Positions 55,759-62,986 of a DNA stretch of 64,000 nucleotides are shown here, in pieces (position 1 is the first letter of the stretch; every line of letters begins with the position of its first letter). Source of the DNA: Spirochaeta lutea (lineage in GTDB: Bacteria; Spirochaetota; Spirochaetia; DSM-27196; Salinispiraceae). The notes below the pieces were generated by a model. That model ran no database searches and had not been told where the DNA came from. It saw only the letters and a list, made by a program, of their open reading frames with translations. The DNA lies in the NCBI RefSeq assembly GCF_000758165.1, contig NZ_JNUP01000072.1, forward strand, positions 40,496-104,495, in the 5' to 3' direction. A program made the translations under genes and the position numbers.

Positions 55759-58008
55759 TTAGTTCTGCCCTGGATTCTCCAGGGGAAGGGTAAACCAGAA
55801 TACACTGCCCGAACCCAGCTCGCTCTCAAACCCAATCTTGCCGCCATGGGCAACGACCAGTTTTTTAGAAAGGGCTAATCCGAGACCCGTACCCTCGATA
55901 TCCCGCACCGCGAACGCCCGGCCGAACTCTGTGAAAATCACCTTTTTATCCGAGTCGGCGATTCCGATCCCCGTGTCCCGAACCGAAAAAACGAGCTCCC
56001 GCCCACTGTTCCCCGGCTTTACCTCCAGGTCGACCCGCCCTTGGTTGGTGTACTTCACACCGTTGGTCATCAGATTAAGCAGTACCTGCTTTACCTTCTG
56101 GCCATCCGCCATAATATCTTCCGGGCAGTCTGGATGGATGGTTTTCACGATAGACAGGGTATTGATCTTCCCCTTACTCCGGGCGTAGCTCTCGCTATGA
56201 ACCAGGGCATAATTGATAATCTCGCTTAACCGCTGGGGCCCCTTGGATATCTCAATCACTCCCGACTCGATGCGGGACAGATTTATTACCTCATCAATAA
56301 TATTTATGAGAACCTCCCCGGCCTCCCTGATGGTCGAGTATGCCTTTAGGTAGCTCCGGTCCTGTTCGGCTAAGAGCTGCTTAACCCGTTCCGTCAATTG
56401 GGGATAGTCCGGGAGGGCTGGCAGGGCGTCCTCCAGATAGGATACAAAGGCGGCGATGCCGTTTCCGCGTAGAATCAGGTGGCCGAGATACGCATCCAAA
56501 TGGTCTAGTGCCCTGGCTTCTTCCGGAGAGAGGGGATCGTCATCGGGGCTTTGATGCAATTCCAAATACTGCTCCAGAGCATGGATAAGGTCCTCCGTTT
56601 TATCGTAGGCACCAAAGCGCAGAAGGTCGGTTATTCCGCTAATGGAGTTGAGGGGGGTCCGCAGCTCGTGGTTCATGTTAACCAGGAACCGTGATTTATG
56701 GGTGTTAGCGATTTCCGCCCGAATCCGCGCCTCTTCCAGCTCCCTGGTACGTTCCTGAACCCGTTCTTCCAGGGTCTGGGCGTAGTTGAGAATTTCCTCC
56801 CGTTGGGATCGAATTTGAGAAAAACTTGCCTTCAGTTCAGCGCCGAGTTGATTAAAACTCCGGGAAAGATCCCCAATTTCATCATCACTTTTTATCCCGA
56901 TCTGTAGGAGCGGTCCCTGCTCCCGGAGATGGCGCCGGAGATTTTCCACCCCGTCGGAGAGATCTACCACGGGACGAATAAGAAACCGGGCAATGAGCAC
57001 CGTCATAATAATAATGAGAAACAGTACAGCGGCTGCCACAATCCAAAGGTAGTTCGGCCCTTCGGAGCTACGGAATCTGCTCTTAGGGATACTAATATGC
57101 CCCACATACTCCCCGGGTTCTCCTATGGGCAGTGGAGCATAGACACTGTACTGTTCTACCCCCTCCAGCACCTCTTCCTGGACAGCATCAACCCGAAGGT
57201 CGGATTGCTGAGAAGATGGTAGCCCGGCGAACCAGGGTATAGTAGCAGGAAGCCGTTCCAGCCGACGTCCGTAGGAATCGAACCGGGTGGTAAACACTAG
57301 CTCTGAGGGTATCCGGCCCTGGCTGCCGTAGCGGTTCCACAGTACCGATTGCGGGGTGGTTTCCAATTCTTCAAGCACCGTTCCAGGAACGCGGTAGATG
57401 GAGGTCTCCTGCCCCAGAGAGAAGGTAACAATATCAAACACCTCATGGCTGATCCGGGTATGCAACCCAAGAACCAGAGCCCCCCCGTTCTCCGTCAGCC
57501 CCCCTGTATTCGCCGCTGCTTCTCCCCTGTTCAACACCAGAAACTGAAAAACCAGTAAGCCCTCTTCGCTCACATGGACAACCTGGGTCCTTCCCTCAAG
57601 CACAGATTCAAAGCTCACTAAGCCGGATACAAAGGGATTCATGGCCCTGATCGGCCGGTTATAGACCAGGCTTTGGTCGCGACTCCACATCTGCACCCCC
57701 ACACTGGGCGCCACATCCACCGGTGCGGGCTGGGAGTTGGGCTCGTTTACCGCTGCTAAAAAGTAGGGATCACCACTCAGGCGGATAGCGGTGCCCCTAA
57801 GCTGCTGGAGCTTGTAGCCCAGGTTTGCCTCCAGGGTCTTCTTACCGTAGTTAAGGCTCTCAAGCAACCGCGTCTGAGAAACCCCTAAGGCCTGGTTGGA
57901 GAGGAAGGTGATCAAGGCAATGGTCGGCACTATCATTACCAGGGTGATGATCATACCGATTTTGAGCATGAGGGGGGTGCGGGTGGATCCGTAACTATGG
58001 TTACTCAA
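55759..58008 (-). CDS. Membrane sensor histidine kinase with enlarged dimerisation domain
   Basis: About 749 residues. Membrane helix 1 (about 15-38), an extracytoplasmic sensor domain of some 280 residues, helix 2 (about 320-342), HAMP (343-395) and a coiled coil come first. The phospho-acceptor His447 lies in NMNHELRTPLNS. The second dimerisation helix (VLINIIDEVINLSRIESG) comes roughly 80 residues later than usual, after an acidic helical insert (about 465-560). The ATPase domain has N-box LLNLMTNGVKYT, DTGIGI and GTGLGLAL. I place the start at TTG 58006-58008 (GGGAG eight bases upstream), overlapping the lipoprotein stop; ATG 57969 is an alternative. Confidence 0.87.
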   Translation of the reverse strand: MSNHSYGSTRTPLMLKIGMIITLVMIVPTIALITFLSNQALGVSQTRLLESLNYGKKTLEANLGYKLQQLRGTAIRLSGDPYFLAAVNEPNSQPAPVDVAPSVGVQMWSRDQSLVYNRPIRAMNPFVSGLVSFESVLEGRTQVVHVSEEGLLVFQFLVLNRGEAAANTGGLTENGGALVLGLHTRISHEVFDIVTFSLGQETSIYRVPGTVLEELETTPQSVLWNRYGSQGRIPSELVFTTRFDSYGRRLERLPATIPWFAGLPSSQQSDLRVDAVQEEVLEGVEQYSVYAPLPIGEPGEYVGHISIPKSRFRSSEGPNYLWIVAAAVLFLIIIMTVLIARFLIRPVVDLSDGVENLRRHLREQGPLLQIGIKSDDEIGDLSRSFNQLGAELKASFSQIRSQREEILNYAQTLEERVQERTRELEEARIRAEIANTHKSRFLVNMNHELRTPLNSISGITDLLRFGAYDKTEDLIHALEQYLELHQSPDDDPLSPEEARALDHLDAYLGHLILRGNGIAAFVSYLEDALPALPDYPQLTERVKQLLAEQDRSYLKAYSTIREAGEVLINIIDEVINLSRIESGVIEISKGPQRLSEIINYALVHSESYARSKGKINTLSIVKTIHPDCPEDIMADGQKVKQVLLNLMTNGVKYTNQGRVDLEVKPGNSGRELVFSVRDTGIGIADSDKKVIFTEFGRAFAVRDIEGTGLGLALSKKLVVAHGGKIGFESELGSGSVFWFTLPLENPGQN

Positions 58009-59581
58009 TGGTGATTCTCCCGTCGACCGCCGAATCAAGAGATGCCATATTCCGCAGATGCTGAAGCATCACCGATAAGCTGGATACCATGGTATCGGAA
58101 ATCAACCGTGCATCCCGAAAATTGGTGTACCCATCCCCGCCGGCATAGAGATACCGCTCCACCGCCACGGTATACTCTCGGTGGGGATCCACCGGCCGGC
58201 CCCCTACCCGGACATCCTGACTGTCGAGCAGCAGATGGGAGCCGGTACGCTGGTACGCCACCTGCAGACCAGAAACCTGGAGAAAGCCGTTCTCCCGCTG
58301 GGGGTCGCCCCAGAACTCTCCGCTTTTCTGCAGCACCTGAATTAACTCCCGGCCCGTCATTCCCAGCAAAACCACCGTTCCTTCAAAGGGCAAACTGGCA
58401 TACAGGTCCGCCAGGGTCACGGCTCCCGGCCCAAGGGAACCGCGAACCGCACCGCTGTTAATCAAGGCAACATCAGTGTTCCAATACGACCGGCATGCAT
58501 CCAAAATAACATTGGCTAAGGGACTTTCACCCCGGGGATTATGGCTTATCCGCTCAGAACTTAGGGTGATTTGATCGCGCAGGAGCTCTTCCACCGCAGC
58601 GGAGGAACGAAAAATCGCCTCGCCGATCACCGGATCCGGTTCGATTACCCTAGACCGTACCGGCAAGTGCTCCTGGGACACCCGTGAGAAATCCTGATGC
58701 ACCTCCAGGTAATCCACGGTTTTCGCACCATCAAATATGGTATCATCAACCATCAGCAGATGTTTCGTCCGACCGTTCCGGGTAAGGCGCTGGAGGGTCG
58801 GTGCCTGGAGATCACGGTTCCCTATGACCAGCATGGAAACCTCAGGAATCCGAATAGCCTCATCGATGAACTGATTCGTGCTCTGGCGGTCCGCCTTATA
58901 CCCCACAGCCATAACCACTACATGTTTGAAGGGCAAGGACCTATTCCGGGCCGTCTCAATTGCGCCGGTGACTGCCTGCTCCAGAGGTATAAGCCCCAGA
59001 CCCCGGATATTTTCCGGCAGATTTCTCTCCTCCAACAGGGGACTCCCCAGTCCAACAAAGAGGGTTGCAGACTGCTCATGGTAAAAATAGGGCTCCAGGT
59101 ACGGGGGAATCTCTCCGGTCTCTGAAATAACAATATTTGAAGCAACCAGGGGGAAGTTTGCAATGACGGCGAGATCCGATAAGCGCCGGGCGCCAAAGTA
59201 AAGCTCCCGGGAGTCGACAAACAGGGCATCCAACCCCATGGAATTGAGACCCTCAATGATAATCTGTCCCTTGGATAGGTAGGCATGGGGACTGCCATGA
59301 ATAGTTCCGTTGGTGGCGAATACCAGGGGATCATCATACTGCCGAATGTAACCGGAAATGAGACTCAGTCCTCCCCGTTTCTCATCCCCGACCTCCTCGG
59401 GAAACAGGCCCCCCTTGAGAGAGTGGATGCCGATCCACCGTACCACTGGTTCCGAATCCTGGGAGGAACAACCGGAAACCAGGAGCAGTCCCGATATGAG
59501 GATGAGCAGCACACCCGGCAGTCCCAGCTTCCAGGAAGCTACATTACTGAGGCTTGGTGATGCTGGCTTCAAGTTTTTCAT
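58001..59581 (-). CDS. Lipoprotein with degenerate 5'-nucleotidase fold
   Basis: 526 residues. A hydrophobic leader ends in VSGC (Cys38), a spirochaete-type lipobox. The C-terminal substrate-binding domain of the UshA/5'-nucleotidase family is well kept (ALINSGAVRGSL, YASLPFEGTVVLLGMTG, GGDGYTNF). The N-terminal phosphoesterase fold aligns, but its metal ligands are gone. Where the family has HTNDxH this protein has GIHSLKGG, for DxGD it has ATNG, for GNHE it has DSRE, and for GHxH it has GNRD. Nucleotide hydrolysis is therefore unlikely, whereas binding may remain. It overlaps the small gene upstream and the kinase downstream. Confidence 0.85.
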   Translation of the reverse strand: MKNLKPASPSLSNVASWKLGLPGVLLILISGLLLVSGCSSQDSEPVVRWIGIHSLKGGLFPEEVGDEKRGGLSLISGYIRQYDDPLVFATNGTIHGSPHAYLSKGQIIIEGLNSMGLDALFVDSRELYFGARRLSDLAVIANFPLVASNIVISETGEIPPYLEPYFYHEQSATLFVGLGSPLLEERNLPENIRGLGLIPLEQAVTGAIETARNRSLPFKHVVVMAVGYKADRQSTNQFIDEAIRIPEVSMLVIGNRDLQAPTLQRLTRNGRTKHLLMVDDTIFDGAKTVDYLEVHQDFSRVSQEHLPVRSRVIEPDPVIGEAIFRSSAAVEELLRDQITLSSERISHNPRGESPLANVILDACRSYWNTDVALINSGAVRGSLGPGAVTLADLYASLPFEGTVVLLGMTGRELIQVLQKSGEFWGDPQRENGFLQVSGLQVAYQRTGSHLLLDSQDVRVGGRPVDPHREYTVAVERYLYAGGDGYTNFRDARLISDTMVSSLSVMLQHLRNMASLDSAVDGRITIE

Positions 59582-59753
59582 AGAGACTGTCCATATTGTG
59601 CTGAATTTTTTTTATAAACTCCGCCCGCTCCTGCTCGGTCATGGTCTCCATGACGCCTAAGCCTAACAGATCTATGAGTCCCTTTAGCTTATTCATGTTC
59701 TCACGAAGCAGGAAATCCGCCTCGGCTTTATAGAATTGTTCTGAATCGGCCAT
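59544..59753 (-). CDS. Small helical protein of unknown function
   Basis: 69 residues, acidic and almost wholly helical (MADSEQFYKAEADFLLREN to MDSLYEKLEASITKPQ), no signal or membrane segment. It starts three bases after the response-regulator stop, and its end overlaps the lipoprotein start by 38 bp. Both suggest a real, co-expressed gene. A role as docking or connector protein for the adjacent two-component pair is a guess from context. Confidence 0.65.
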   Translation of the reverse strand: MADSEQFYKAEADFLLRENMNKLKGLIDLLGLGVMETMTEQERAEFIKKIQHNMDSLYEKLEASITKPQ

Positions 59754-59756
59754 AGG

Positions 59757-60188
59757 CTATCCTAACCGTTCCCGGAGCCGATCGGGAATAGCAACCCCCA
59801 GGGTTCTGGAGATATCCTGAATCATTTCGGCTTGATTTATAGGCTTTGTTATATACTTGGTAAACCCGGCTTTTAAACAGCGGTCACGATCACTGTCATT
59901 ACCGTCATGGGCAGCCATGGCCTGAGCGGTTACCGCCCAAATCGGTGTATCCCGAAACTCGGGAATGCTGCGGATCAGCTTTACAACCTCAATGCCTGAG
60001 TCCTCCCGCTCCATCTTAATATCCATGAGAATGAGATCCGGTTTCTCATTGCGGATAATCTCCACCGACGTCACACCGGAACTCGCCTCCAGAACCGAGA
60101 TGTCAGCCTTCGGACCAAAAAGTTTAAAGAGGGTCTTTAAGACGTACCGGTTAGACTCCAGATCGTCAACTATTAATACTTTTGTCAT
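59757..60188 (-). CDS. Receiver-only response regulator
   Basis: 143 residues: receiver domain with Asp8/Asp9, phospho-acceptor Asp56 (LILMDIKMERED), Thr87 and Lys115 (YITKPINQ), plus a short C-terminal extension (about 20 residues) without DNA-binding or enzyme domain. It is probably the partner of the histidine kinase at 55759-58008, acting through protein contact. Confidence 0.85.
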   Translation of the reverse strand: MTKVLIVDDLESNRYVLKTLFKLFGPKADISVLEASSGVTSVEIIRNEKPDLILMDIKMEREDSGIEVVKLIRSIPEFRDTPIWAVTAQAMAAHDGNDSDRDRCLKAGFTKYITKPINQAEMIQDISRTLGVAIPDRLRERLG

Positions 60189-60200
60189 AGAGAAAGTGTA

Positions 60201-60959
60201 TTACCCGGCGGATAGATTTTCAAGTAATTCTCCGACCTGAACCCAAAGGGTATCCCCTTGAACCTGCCGGGGATCAGCCCAGACCTGAACTTCCCGCTGG
60301 CCCGTGGGATGGGGTACAGAGAGGTACCGCGCATGGAGGGCTATGCCCCCTCCAGGAATACTCCGGGCCGCCCCGTATTTCAGATCCCCCCGGAGAGGAA
60401 ACCCCCGGGCAGCGAACTGCACGCGAATCTGGTGATGCCGTCCGGTTTCCAGCTGAACCTCCCAGAGGGCATAGCGATCCAGGCGCAGCCCTAGGGAGTA
60501 CCGCAACACCCCATGCTTCGCCCCCCGGGTTCCCTGGGGTACGGTGACGCTTTTATTGACCTTGGGATTGCGCCGGAGCCAATCCGACATCTCTCCCCCC
60601 TCACCCAATACCTCCGTAGCTTGGATATCAGTAATGGCCCAGTAGTGTTTTTGTACACTCCGGTCTCGAAAGCTCTCCGTCAATCGGGAGAGGGCCTTGG
60701 ATGTTTTAGCGTATACAACACATCCGCTGGTGGGTCTATCCAGGCGGTGAACCAGGCCGAGAAATACATTCCCCGGTTTGTGGTCCCGAACCTTTATAAA
60801 CTCCTTGAGGTTCTCCAAGAGTGAGACATCTCCGGTCTTGTCTCCCTGCACTAATTCCGAGCAGGTCTTGTTCACAATCAGGAGATGGTTATCTTCGTAT
60901 AAAATCCGTTGGGCTAAGGGGGGAGTCTCACCCTGCCGCAGATCCTTCACACCTCCCAA
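60201..60959 (-). CDS. RluA-family rRNA/tRNA pseudouridine synthase
   Basis: 252 residues. The catalytic motif GLVHRLDRPTSG with its Asp, the KHYWAI segment and the LETGRHHQIRVQFAARG region are complete; no S4 RNA-binding domain precedes them. The target uridine cannot be told. The start appears to be TTG at 60957-60959 with AAGGA nine bases upstream, two bases after the preceding gene's stop; GTG 60950 is the alternative. Confidence 0.88.
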   Translation of the reverse strand: MGGVKDLRQGETPPLAQRILYEDNHLLIVNKTCSELVQGDKTGDVSLLENLKEFIKVRDHKPGNVFLGLVHRLDRPTSGCVVYAKTSKALSRLTESFRDRSVQKHYWAITDIQATEVLGEGGEMSDWLRRNPKVNKSVTVPQGTRGAKHGVLRYSLGLRLDRYALWEVQLETGRHHQIRVQFAARGFPLRGDLKYGAARSIPGGGIALHARYLSVPHPTGQREVQVWADPRQVQGDTLWVQVGELLENLSAG

Positions 60960-60961
60960 GC

Positions 60962-62986
60962 CTAGAGATCCTTCCGGTAAACCTGGAGATGAAACTCGCC
61001 CGCAGCATCGGAACTGAAGGACATCACCCGAATGGTGTATATGCCAGGCTCGTTGAGATCATGCACAATCATGGAATCAGTACCGCTCCCGCCATCATCA
61101 TCCTCGGCCATAATAATCCCCCGGGGATCCAAAAGACTCAACCTCGTATCAAAATCCTGACTTTGAAGGTTAATCCGGACAGTTCCGGGTTGGGATACGG
61201 TCAGGACATATTCCTGCTCCACCTGGGCCGCGCCGATAGCACCCCGCTGATCCAGCACTAATTCACCAAGTTCAAACTCCTCAACCTTCAAGGTGTATAT
61301 TCCCTGGGCATCACCGGAATAGCTGGAGGCAGTAAGCCGGTACTGCCCGGAGGCGGGCGCCGTAAGCACTAATAATGAGTTGGTATCCTCGGGACCGTCA
61401 TCGTTCTCCCAAGCCTCCCCTTGCGGACCGTCTATCTGAAGGAAGGTATCGAAGCTATCAGACTCCAGGGTGATCTGATAGGCCCTGCCTTCTGTCAAGC
61501 CGATGGTATACACCTGGCCGACCCGGGATTCCCCGTACCAATCATCCGAGGAAGCCTCAATACCCATGGCGGATAAAAAGGACGTGACCGGTTCTCCTAA
61601 TTCGAGGCGTGCACCCTCCCGGTAGGGGACAATTGAATCGGAATCCAGCTCTGTAACCAGGAGTTCGTAGGCTCCTGAATCCTCCTGGGAGTATCCCCGT
61701 ACCTCAATGAACAGGGGAGCATCACCGGTGAATTGGTACTCCACCCTCGAAACATAATCCCAGGCAGACGAGCCGCCCCGGGGCTGGGAGGCATCATCGT
61801 TCTCAATTGATGTTCCCTCGGGGGTGGTGACGAACAGCAGGGTATCAAAATCCTGGCTCACCAGCTGAACGGAAACGAGTTGACCCGCCCTCCCCCGGAA
61901 AGAGTAGCGGTTTATCCCCCCCGGAGAAAGTTCGCCGGAAACTGCAGTACCGAGTTCCAAGGCCGGGGGATCGGGAATAAGAGCGGTAACCAGCTCAAAG
62001 GACCCCGAACCGGAGTAGGATTTTACGATGATTTCTGCGTTTTCTCCCTCATCCAGGGGTACGGTTAGCATTGAGTTACTGCCCTCTCCTCCATCATCAT
62101 CGGATAACCGGGTACCGCCGGCTAATGAAGCCTCGAGGAGGGTATCAAAATCCGAGCTGGATAGGCTAAACCGGTAATACCCGCTTTTCGGCGCGGTGAA
62201 TTCATAGCGCAGCTCATCGCCGCTGCCCGAGGAAAAGACCTGTCCACGAAGAAGCTCTCCAAGCCGGAGAGCCGGGGGCGGCTCGGGTATCCGAGCATCT
62301 AGGCTATAGGCTCCCTCCTCCCCGAAGAGAGCGCTTGCCCCCAGGAGCACCGACACCCCCGGCTCACCCCTCAGGGTAATTCGGGAATCCGTGCCTGAAC
62401 CGTAGTCATCGTTGCTGTCTATCCTTCCATCGGGATAGTAGACGGTCAGCAGGGTATCCACATCGGAGCTATGCATACTAATGACAGCGGTGCCGGTTTC
62501 AGGGATCTCAACCAGGTACCATTCAGATCGGTTTGATCCCGGAAGCATAAATGAATCCGGCGTAAGCCGGCCCTCTACCCCCTCGCCCATTCCCAGGCGG
62601 TTTTCGGGTTGCAGAAGGGTCACCCGGACTTGTACCTCCCGGGGCGGCGAGCCCTGTCTGTCAGCGGACTCGATTAGCAGCCGGTAATCCCCCTGGGGGG
62701 CATATACCAATCCCTGACTCCTCCCTTGACTCTCTTCCGCTTGGGCAGAAAATCCCCCTGGGCCTTCTAGGCTGAGTATGGGCTGTAGATCAATGCTCCC
62801 GGCATCGAATAGAAGCAGCCCTGGAGATTCAACCTGGAACTGAACCCGGGTTGGGGTCCTTAATCCCGCCTCAAGAACCACGTTTTCTCTCACCAACTCT
62901 TGAGCTTGTGCACCGACCAGGGCCGGCCACATGACCAGCAGGCCGGCTATGATCCCAAGCCCGGTATTTCGTTGAAAAATCTTCAT
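60962..62986 (-). CDS. Exported protein with five PPC-like beta-sandwich repeats
   Basis: 674 residues with a signal peptide (MKIFQRNTGLGIIAGLLVMW, cut near AQA at 28). Five repeats carry S[SQ]D[FV]DTLL-like cores at about 173, 277, 377, 509 and 609. Each is followed some 15 residues later by an acidic DDxGGxGTDS-like loop. This is the pattern of bacterial pre-peptidase C-terminal (PPC) domains, which may bind calcium or glycans. No peptidase domain is attached. It lies 23 bp after the chemoreceptor gene with GGAGGGA before its ATG, so the two are probably co-transcribed. Confidence 0.83.
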   Translation of the reverse strand: MKIFQRNTGLGIIAGLLVMWPALVGAQAQELVRENVVLEAGLRTPTRVQFQVESPGLLLFDAGSIDLQPILSLEGPGGFSAQAEESQGRSQGLVYAPQGDYRLLIESADRQGSPPREVQVRVTLLQPENRLGMGEGVEGRLTPDSFMLPGSNRSEWYLVEIPETGTAVISMHSSDVDTLLTVYYPDGRIDSNDDYGSGTDSRITLRGEPGVSVLLGASALFGEEGAYSLDARIPEPPPALRLGELLRGQVFSSGSGDELRYEFTAPKSGYYRFSLSSSDFDTLLEASLAGGTRLSDDDGGEGSNSMLTVPLDEGENAEIIVKSYSGSGSFELVTALIPDPPALELGTAVSGELSPGGINRYSFRGRAGQLVSVQLVSQDFDTLLFVTTPEGTSIENDDASQPRGGSSAWDYVSRVEYQFTGDAPLFIEVRGYSQEDSGAYELLVTELDSDSIVPYREGARLELGEPVTSFLSAMGIEASSDDWYGESRVGQVYTIGLTEGRAYQITLESDSFDTFLQIDGPQGEAWENDDGPEDTNSLLVLTAPASGQYRLTASSYSGDAQGIYTLKVEEFELGELVLDQRGAIGAAQVEQEYVLTVSQPGTVRINLQSQDFDTRLSLLDPRGIIMAEDDDGGSGTDSMIVHDLNEPGIYTIRVMSFSSDAAGEFHLQVYRKDL

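Follow-up and report, generated by a model that had tools for sequence, protein, structure and literature searches.

A pair of adjacent genes, encoding a lipoprotein with the 5'-nucleotidase fold and a membrane histidine kinase, was found to be the conserved core of a four-gene unit in Spirochaeta lutea, whereas the other two members, a stand-alone receiver and a 69-aa protein, constitute an output arm confined to the family of this organism. The unit is located in a 64,000-nucleotide stretch of contig NZ_JNUP01000072.1, hereafter called the window. The lost metal site of the lipoprotein, its kept substrate pocket and its constant kinase neighbour suggest that a dead enzyme has been taken over as the sensing component of a signalling pathway. 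A sensor complex formed by the lipoprotein and the kinase is our leading hypothesis, and the overall reading, in which a dead nucleotidase would be the ligand-binding subunit of a partner-read envelope receptor, appears moderately probable.

The four-gene unit and its conservation in one family

The four genes had been described as a tightly packed minus-strand unit, and the coordinates agree with this description (Table 1). The receiver and the 69-aa ORF are separated by a gap of 3 bp, the 69-aa and lipoprotein ORFs overlap by 38 bp, and the lipoprotein and kinase genes overlap by 8 bp if the kinase start is the TTG at 58008; the kinase frame is open as far upstream as a TTG at 58038. In each of the three genera discussed below, the receiver gene is immediately preceded by the genes for an exported PPC-repeat protein and a pseudouridine synthase (60201-62986 of the window, minus strand). 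The pseudouridine synthase gene is probably co-transcribed with the receiver while standing outside the signalling unit. PADLOC identified no defence family among the four proteins.

Table 1. Coordinates of the gene unit, its internal features and the partner kinases that have lost phosphorylation residues
Feature	Position	Strand	Basis
Stand-alone receiver, 143 aa	59757..60188	-	Pfam Response_reg 2.6e-21
69-aa protein ORF	59544..59753	-	Adjoins receiver in G002 and G003; no significant Pfam family
Pseudo-5'-nucleotidase lipoprotein, 526 aa	58001..59581	-	5_nucleotid_C; AF2 5'-nucleotidase fold
Motif RELYFG, residues 125-130, replacing the catalytic NHE motif	59192..59209	-	Alignment of relatives
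Membrane histidine kinase	55759..58008	-	HAMP, HisKA, HATPase_c (Pfam); two membrane helices
Kinase outer domain, double-Cache-like fold	57061..57894	-	AF2 model and structural matches
Segment inserted between the His helix and helix 2 of the kinase DHp hairpin	56344..56589	-	Kinase alignment
Pseudouridine synthase gene, 12 bp upstream of receiver	60201..60959	-	Same place in G002 and G003
Exported PPC-repeat protein, head of the same gene run	60962..62986	-	Same place in G002 and G003
Partner kinases with lost His and Asp	L086:11505-14561, L088:4724-7834, L092:6244-8597

In the genome G002, from a different genus of the family, the genes for the PPC protein, pseudouridine synthase, receiver, small protein, lipoprotein and kinase follow each other in the same order, and the identities to the window proteins are 80% for the receiver, 62% for the 69-aa protein, 37% for the lipoprotein and 40% for the kinase. 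In G003, the receiver (73% identical) and the 69-aa protein (68%) precede a lipoprotein gene that is truncated by the contig end. Three genera of a single spirochaete family thereby share the gene order receiver, 69-aa protein, lipoprotein, and also the kinase downstream except where the contig ends (G003). The four-gene unit with its small ORF is beyond chance and is conserved in G002 and G003. A further genome of the family, G001, is without the receiver, the small protein and the lipoprotein. Among 60 relatives searched, no genome besides G002 and G003 yielded the receiver at E 1e-20, and outside these two the 69-aa protein gave only weak matches inside longer frames; the latter protein was also absent from the plasmid collection, and neither the receiver nor this protein was present at the remaining pseudo-lipoprotein loci that were inspected.

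A 5'-nucleotidase lipoprotein without metal ligands

The lipoprotein possesses the lipobox LLVSG-C38. Pfam recognised its 5_nucleotid_C domain (6.5e-31) with no metallophosphatase match, and all NCBIfam matches were far under the cut-off. According to the AF2 model (pLDDT 84.5, pTM 0.81) and its structural matches, an N-terminal metallophosphatase-like domain that escapes Pfam is present, and the best PDB matches are 5'-nucleotidases aligned by Foldseek over about 520 columns at TM 0.6-0.75, which corresponds to the full two-domain fold. The window protein and 17 relatives, about 25-37% identical to it, were aligned with E. coli UshA and canonical relatives, including C62 from the window's own genome. 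None of the seven UshA metal ligands (D41, H43, D84, N116, H217, H252 and Q254) is present in any of the 18 pseudo-5'-nucleotidases, and neither residue of the catalytic dyad H117/D120 was found in them. The original observation of a lipoprotein that has the 5'-nucleotidase substrate domain but lacks the metal-site residues is thus confirmed by the comparison with UshA. The position of the old NHE motif is occupied by the family signature R[ED][FLY]YFG, in which R125, Y128, F129 and G130 are invariant in all relatives aligned; used together with 5_nucleotid_C, this signature could guard against misannotation of such proteins as 5'-nucleotidases.

In CD73, the base is stacked between two aromatic residues, the ribose is held by Asn390 and Asp506, and the phosphate by Arg354 and Arg395 (PMC8677862). 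All 18 pseudo-5'-nucleotidases keep a clamp that consists, in UshA numbering, of R410, an aromatic residue (F/Y) at 429 and 498, D504 and the ribose Asn, and the positions of UshA R375 and R379 are lost. Judging by the retained residues, the pocket looks fit for a nucleoside or a nucleoside-bearing ligand; active enzymes conserve the clamp residues as well, so that part of this retention may have structural reasons. We give a nucleoside-type ligand an even chance. The lipoprotein shares the two-domain fold and the C-terminal nucleoside clamp with UshA and CD73, but, unlike them, it is devoid of the metal ligands and the dyad, and its gene is always found beside a kinase gene. A 5'Nuc-related salivary protein of tsetse was considered as a pseudoenzyme precedent and dropped, its active site being retained (PMC2843633).

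Family peptide patterns, which limit the members that can be detected, were scanned over 84,980 prokaryote species and returned 15 proteins beyond the window's genome and G002. Seven of them come from records with spirochaete names, and the other eight from Candidatus Delongbacteria or from unclassified records that branch with these. Pseudo-5'-nucleotidases are encoded in nine of the 13 genomes of the class to which one of the eight Delongbacteria-type genomes belongs, and the same test was passed by five of 393 Spirochaetota genomes. In a tree of 49 proteins, the 18 pseudo-5'-nucleotidases of Spirochaetota and Candidatus Delongbacteria all fall into a single clade (support 100/100). A membrane kinase is encoded by the next same-strand gene downstream at each of the 18 pseudo loci (L085 and L096 were counted on the kinase start alone, the contig ending there) and at none of the 31 distinct canonical 5'-nucleotidase loci, for which at least 900 bases downstream were required and from which the entry L101, itself a protein kinase, was removed. 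The distances of the lipoproteins and of the kinase outer domains are correlated (r = 0.90, with a contribution from shared species history). A functional pairing of the lipoprotein and the kinase is very likely in our assessment. Conserved co-occurrence of all four genes, as originally proposed, held for the lipoprotein-kinase pair in two phyla and for the receiver-69aa-lipoprotein order in three genera, but the full set proved to be restricted to the family.

The partner kinase and its exchangeable outputs

The outer domain of the kinase belongs to no Pfam family, and dCache_1 gave no match above the cut-off in seven outer domains (the best reached 0.018, the cut-off being 45 bits). Its AF2 model, which is of moderate confidence (pLDDT 71.7, pTM 0.74), aligns at VIA-align Z 12-14 with Cache domains of chemoreceptors and kinases among the matches listed; LuxQ is not among the best 50 structural matches listed, which is no argument against a likeness to LuxQ. 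In the outer-domain alignment, invariance is limited to a single Asp that follows the first helix and to a T..D..G motif near the membrane, with no conserved distal pocket. For the purine-binding motif of the distal Cache module, no conserved aromatic pair was seen in this alignment, where low identity makes the placement of the motif unsure.

On the cytoplasmic side, the residues expected of a two-component system are present in the window: the kinase has H457 and intact ATP-binding boxes (N-box and G-boxes), and the receiver has the phospho-acceptor Asp56 with the usual DD/T/K residues. It is fairly likely that this receiver is the target of the kinase. Among the kinases aligned, only those of the window and G002 carry the insertion in the DHp hairpin, which is roughly 80-90 residues long, and no further match to it was obtained in 60 relatives. 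The insertion co-occurs with the receiver and the 69-aa gene in both cases (2/2) and is absent elsewhere, although its co-occurrence with the small protein is suggestive only. By inspection, the 69-aa protein is probably a two-helix hairpin; its interpretation is speculative, and a role on the kinase is rather doubtful. Phosphotransfer via a conserved His in this protein was rejected, as its sole His is not conserved in G002.

The outputs of the family differ by lineage. The window and G002 combine an intact-box kinase bearing the DHp insertion with the separate receiver and small protein, while the hybrid kinase of Delongbacteria contains PAS and a receiver that is intact. The spirochaete kinases of L086, L088 and L092 have lost the phospho-accepting His as well as the receiver Asp; the first two end in a class III cyclase domain, and the third is cut by the contig end. 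Since the cyclase domain is kept in L086 and L088 despite the loss of His and Asp, the signal may pass there without phosphorylation. This diversity suggests that the lipoprotein and the outer domain form the conserved input, and that the downstream part is exchangeable. A second pseudo-lipoprotein/kinase pair is located on contig C28 of the window's own genome (L035:6000-9747, minus strand), and its kinase has HisKA and a receiver-like tail with no recognisable ATPase domain. The genes of a Delongbacteria run (L101:2-12989, L095:6449-16010) encode a TPR-repeat Ser/Thr kinase (L101), a membrane-helix protein of ~1160 aa to which Pfam gave no match, the lipoprotein with its kinase, lipoyl synthase and an ATP:guanido phosphotransferase-like protein.

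A candidate partner-read receptor and alternative explanations

LuxP is a periplasmic protein of the sugar-binding type. In Vibrio, the tandem-PDC (double-Cache-like) outer domain of LuxQ reads LuxP, a soluble envelope protein and the AI-2 receptor (PMC8534201). Based on the AF2 folds of the lipoprotein and the outer domain, the architecture in the window resembles LuxP/LuxQ with a dead nucleotidase replacing LuxP. The likeness lies in a kinase with a tandem-PDC (double-Cache) outer domain, here at the fold level of a moderate-confidence model, whereas the partner in the window is a lipid-anchored dead 5'-nucleotidase and not a LuxP-type periplasmic binding protein. By the same analogy, the pattern of invariant columns without a distal pocket fits an outer domain that is read through its partner, as LuxQ is through LuxP. 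We propose that the lipoprotein and the kinase would assemble as an envelope sensor complex, in which the C-terminal clamp of the lipoprotein would hold a nucleoside or a nucleoside-bearing molecule. A ligand-dependent movement of the two lipoprotein domains would then be read by the double-Cache-like outer domain (cf. LuxP/LuxQ), the direction of the effect being presumed. In the window's family, the kinase would phosphorylate the neighbouring stand-alone receiver and may itself be tuned by the 69-aa protein via the inserted DHp segment.

The site of ligand binding could be placed differently. In the dCache_1PU receptors, the Cache domain itself binds a purine (PMC11245519), and these receptors have in common with the window a double-Cache-type outer domain and possibly a purine-type signal. 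With such a precedent and the double-Cache-like fold, the outer domain of the kinase might bind the signal in a Cache pocket of its own, the lipoprotein merely delivering or scavenging the ligand; however, an outer domain with so few invariant positions, no conserved pocket and no dCache_1 match above the cut-off makes this quite improbable, and the candidate site is instead placed in the lipoprotein. Kinase accessory proteins that act without ligand binding are exemplified by LpqB-MtrB and NlpE-CpxA. On these precedents the lipoprotein might be an accessory regulator that binds no small ligand and reports the envelope state or its own trafficking, for which the same pairing and single-clade data would speak, but we hold this to be unlikely, given that the aromatic pair, the ribose Asn/Asp and one Arg are kept in 18/18 proteins of such low identity. 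The actinobacterial LpqB-MtrB system resembles the window in having a lipoprotein gene beside a sensor kinase gene, while its lipoprotein fold and kinase family, set apart by name rather than by sequence, are unrelated to those of the window.

The invariance of R[ED][FLY]YFG at the old catalytic position implies that the site is under selection and could be taken to mean that the lipoprotein is still an enzyme with a different active site; yet, besides the hydrophobic Tyr/Phe, the motif provides an Arg and an acid but no metal ligands of known chemistry, so that residual catalysis of this kind is very improbable. On the output side, the receiver and the 69-aa protein might constitute a separate upstream module, with the kinase signalling elsewhere. 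Their absence from other pseudo-lipoprotein loci would agree with this, as would the far higher identity of the window and G002 receivers compared with that of the lipoproteins and kinases. The preserved gene order in three genera and the restriction of the DHp insertion to genomes with the receiver and the 69-aa gene render such a separation rather unlikely; the receiver may serve other kinases too.

Partner-read kinases are already known, and the new element relative to the open-access literature is a pseudo-5'-nucleotidase as the partner; no description of the pseudo-5'-nucleotidase/kinase pair was found there, which is in itself weak evidence. A broader formulation of the partner-read receptor is offered tentatively, and we consider it somewhat less probable than its opposite: bacterial receptors of a class so far undescribed, where a dead 5'-nucleotidase lipoprotein, a relative of CD73, would be the ligand-binding subunit of a double-Cache sensor of extracellular nucleosides, and the output would be, depending on the lineage, a kinase with a stand-alone receiver, a hybrid kinase, or a class III cyclase acting directly after decay of the phosphorelay. 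If true, an enzyme family turned sensor subunit could be traced to one clade, and a dead nucleotidase would have stayed with its receptor in two phyla through changes of output. It would also become possible to test whether bacteria of lineages with little experimental work sense nucleosides or nucleotide derivatives outside the cell.

Several other arrangements of 5'-nucleotidase genes were observed. In genomes of the same order, the 5'-nucleotidase domains are split into two genes (L041:6131-7910, L042:6638-8426 and L043:7534-9379), which are divergent in L043. Three tandem 5'-nucleotidase-like lipoproteins, two of them with partial loss of metal ligands, are encoded at L036:5725-10588 (plus strand) with no kinase nearby. 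At L079:690-4577 (minus strand) and L080:8668-12546 (plus strand), the gene after a canonical 5'-nucleotidase whose metal ligands are intact encodes a dCache_1 chemoreceptor (Pfam on L079), an arrangement that is the active-enzyme counterpart of the lipoprotein-kinase pair.
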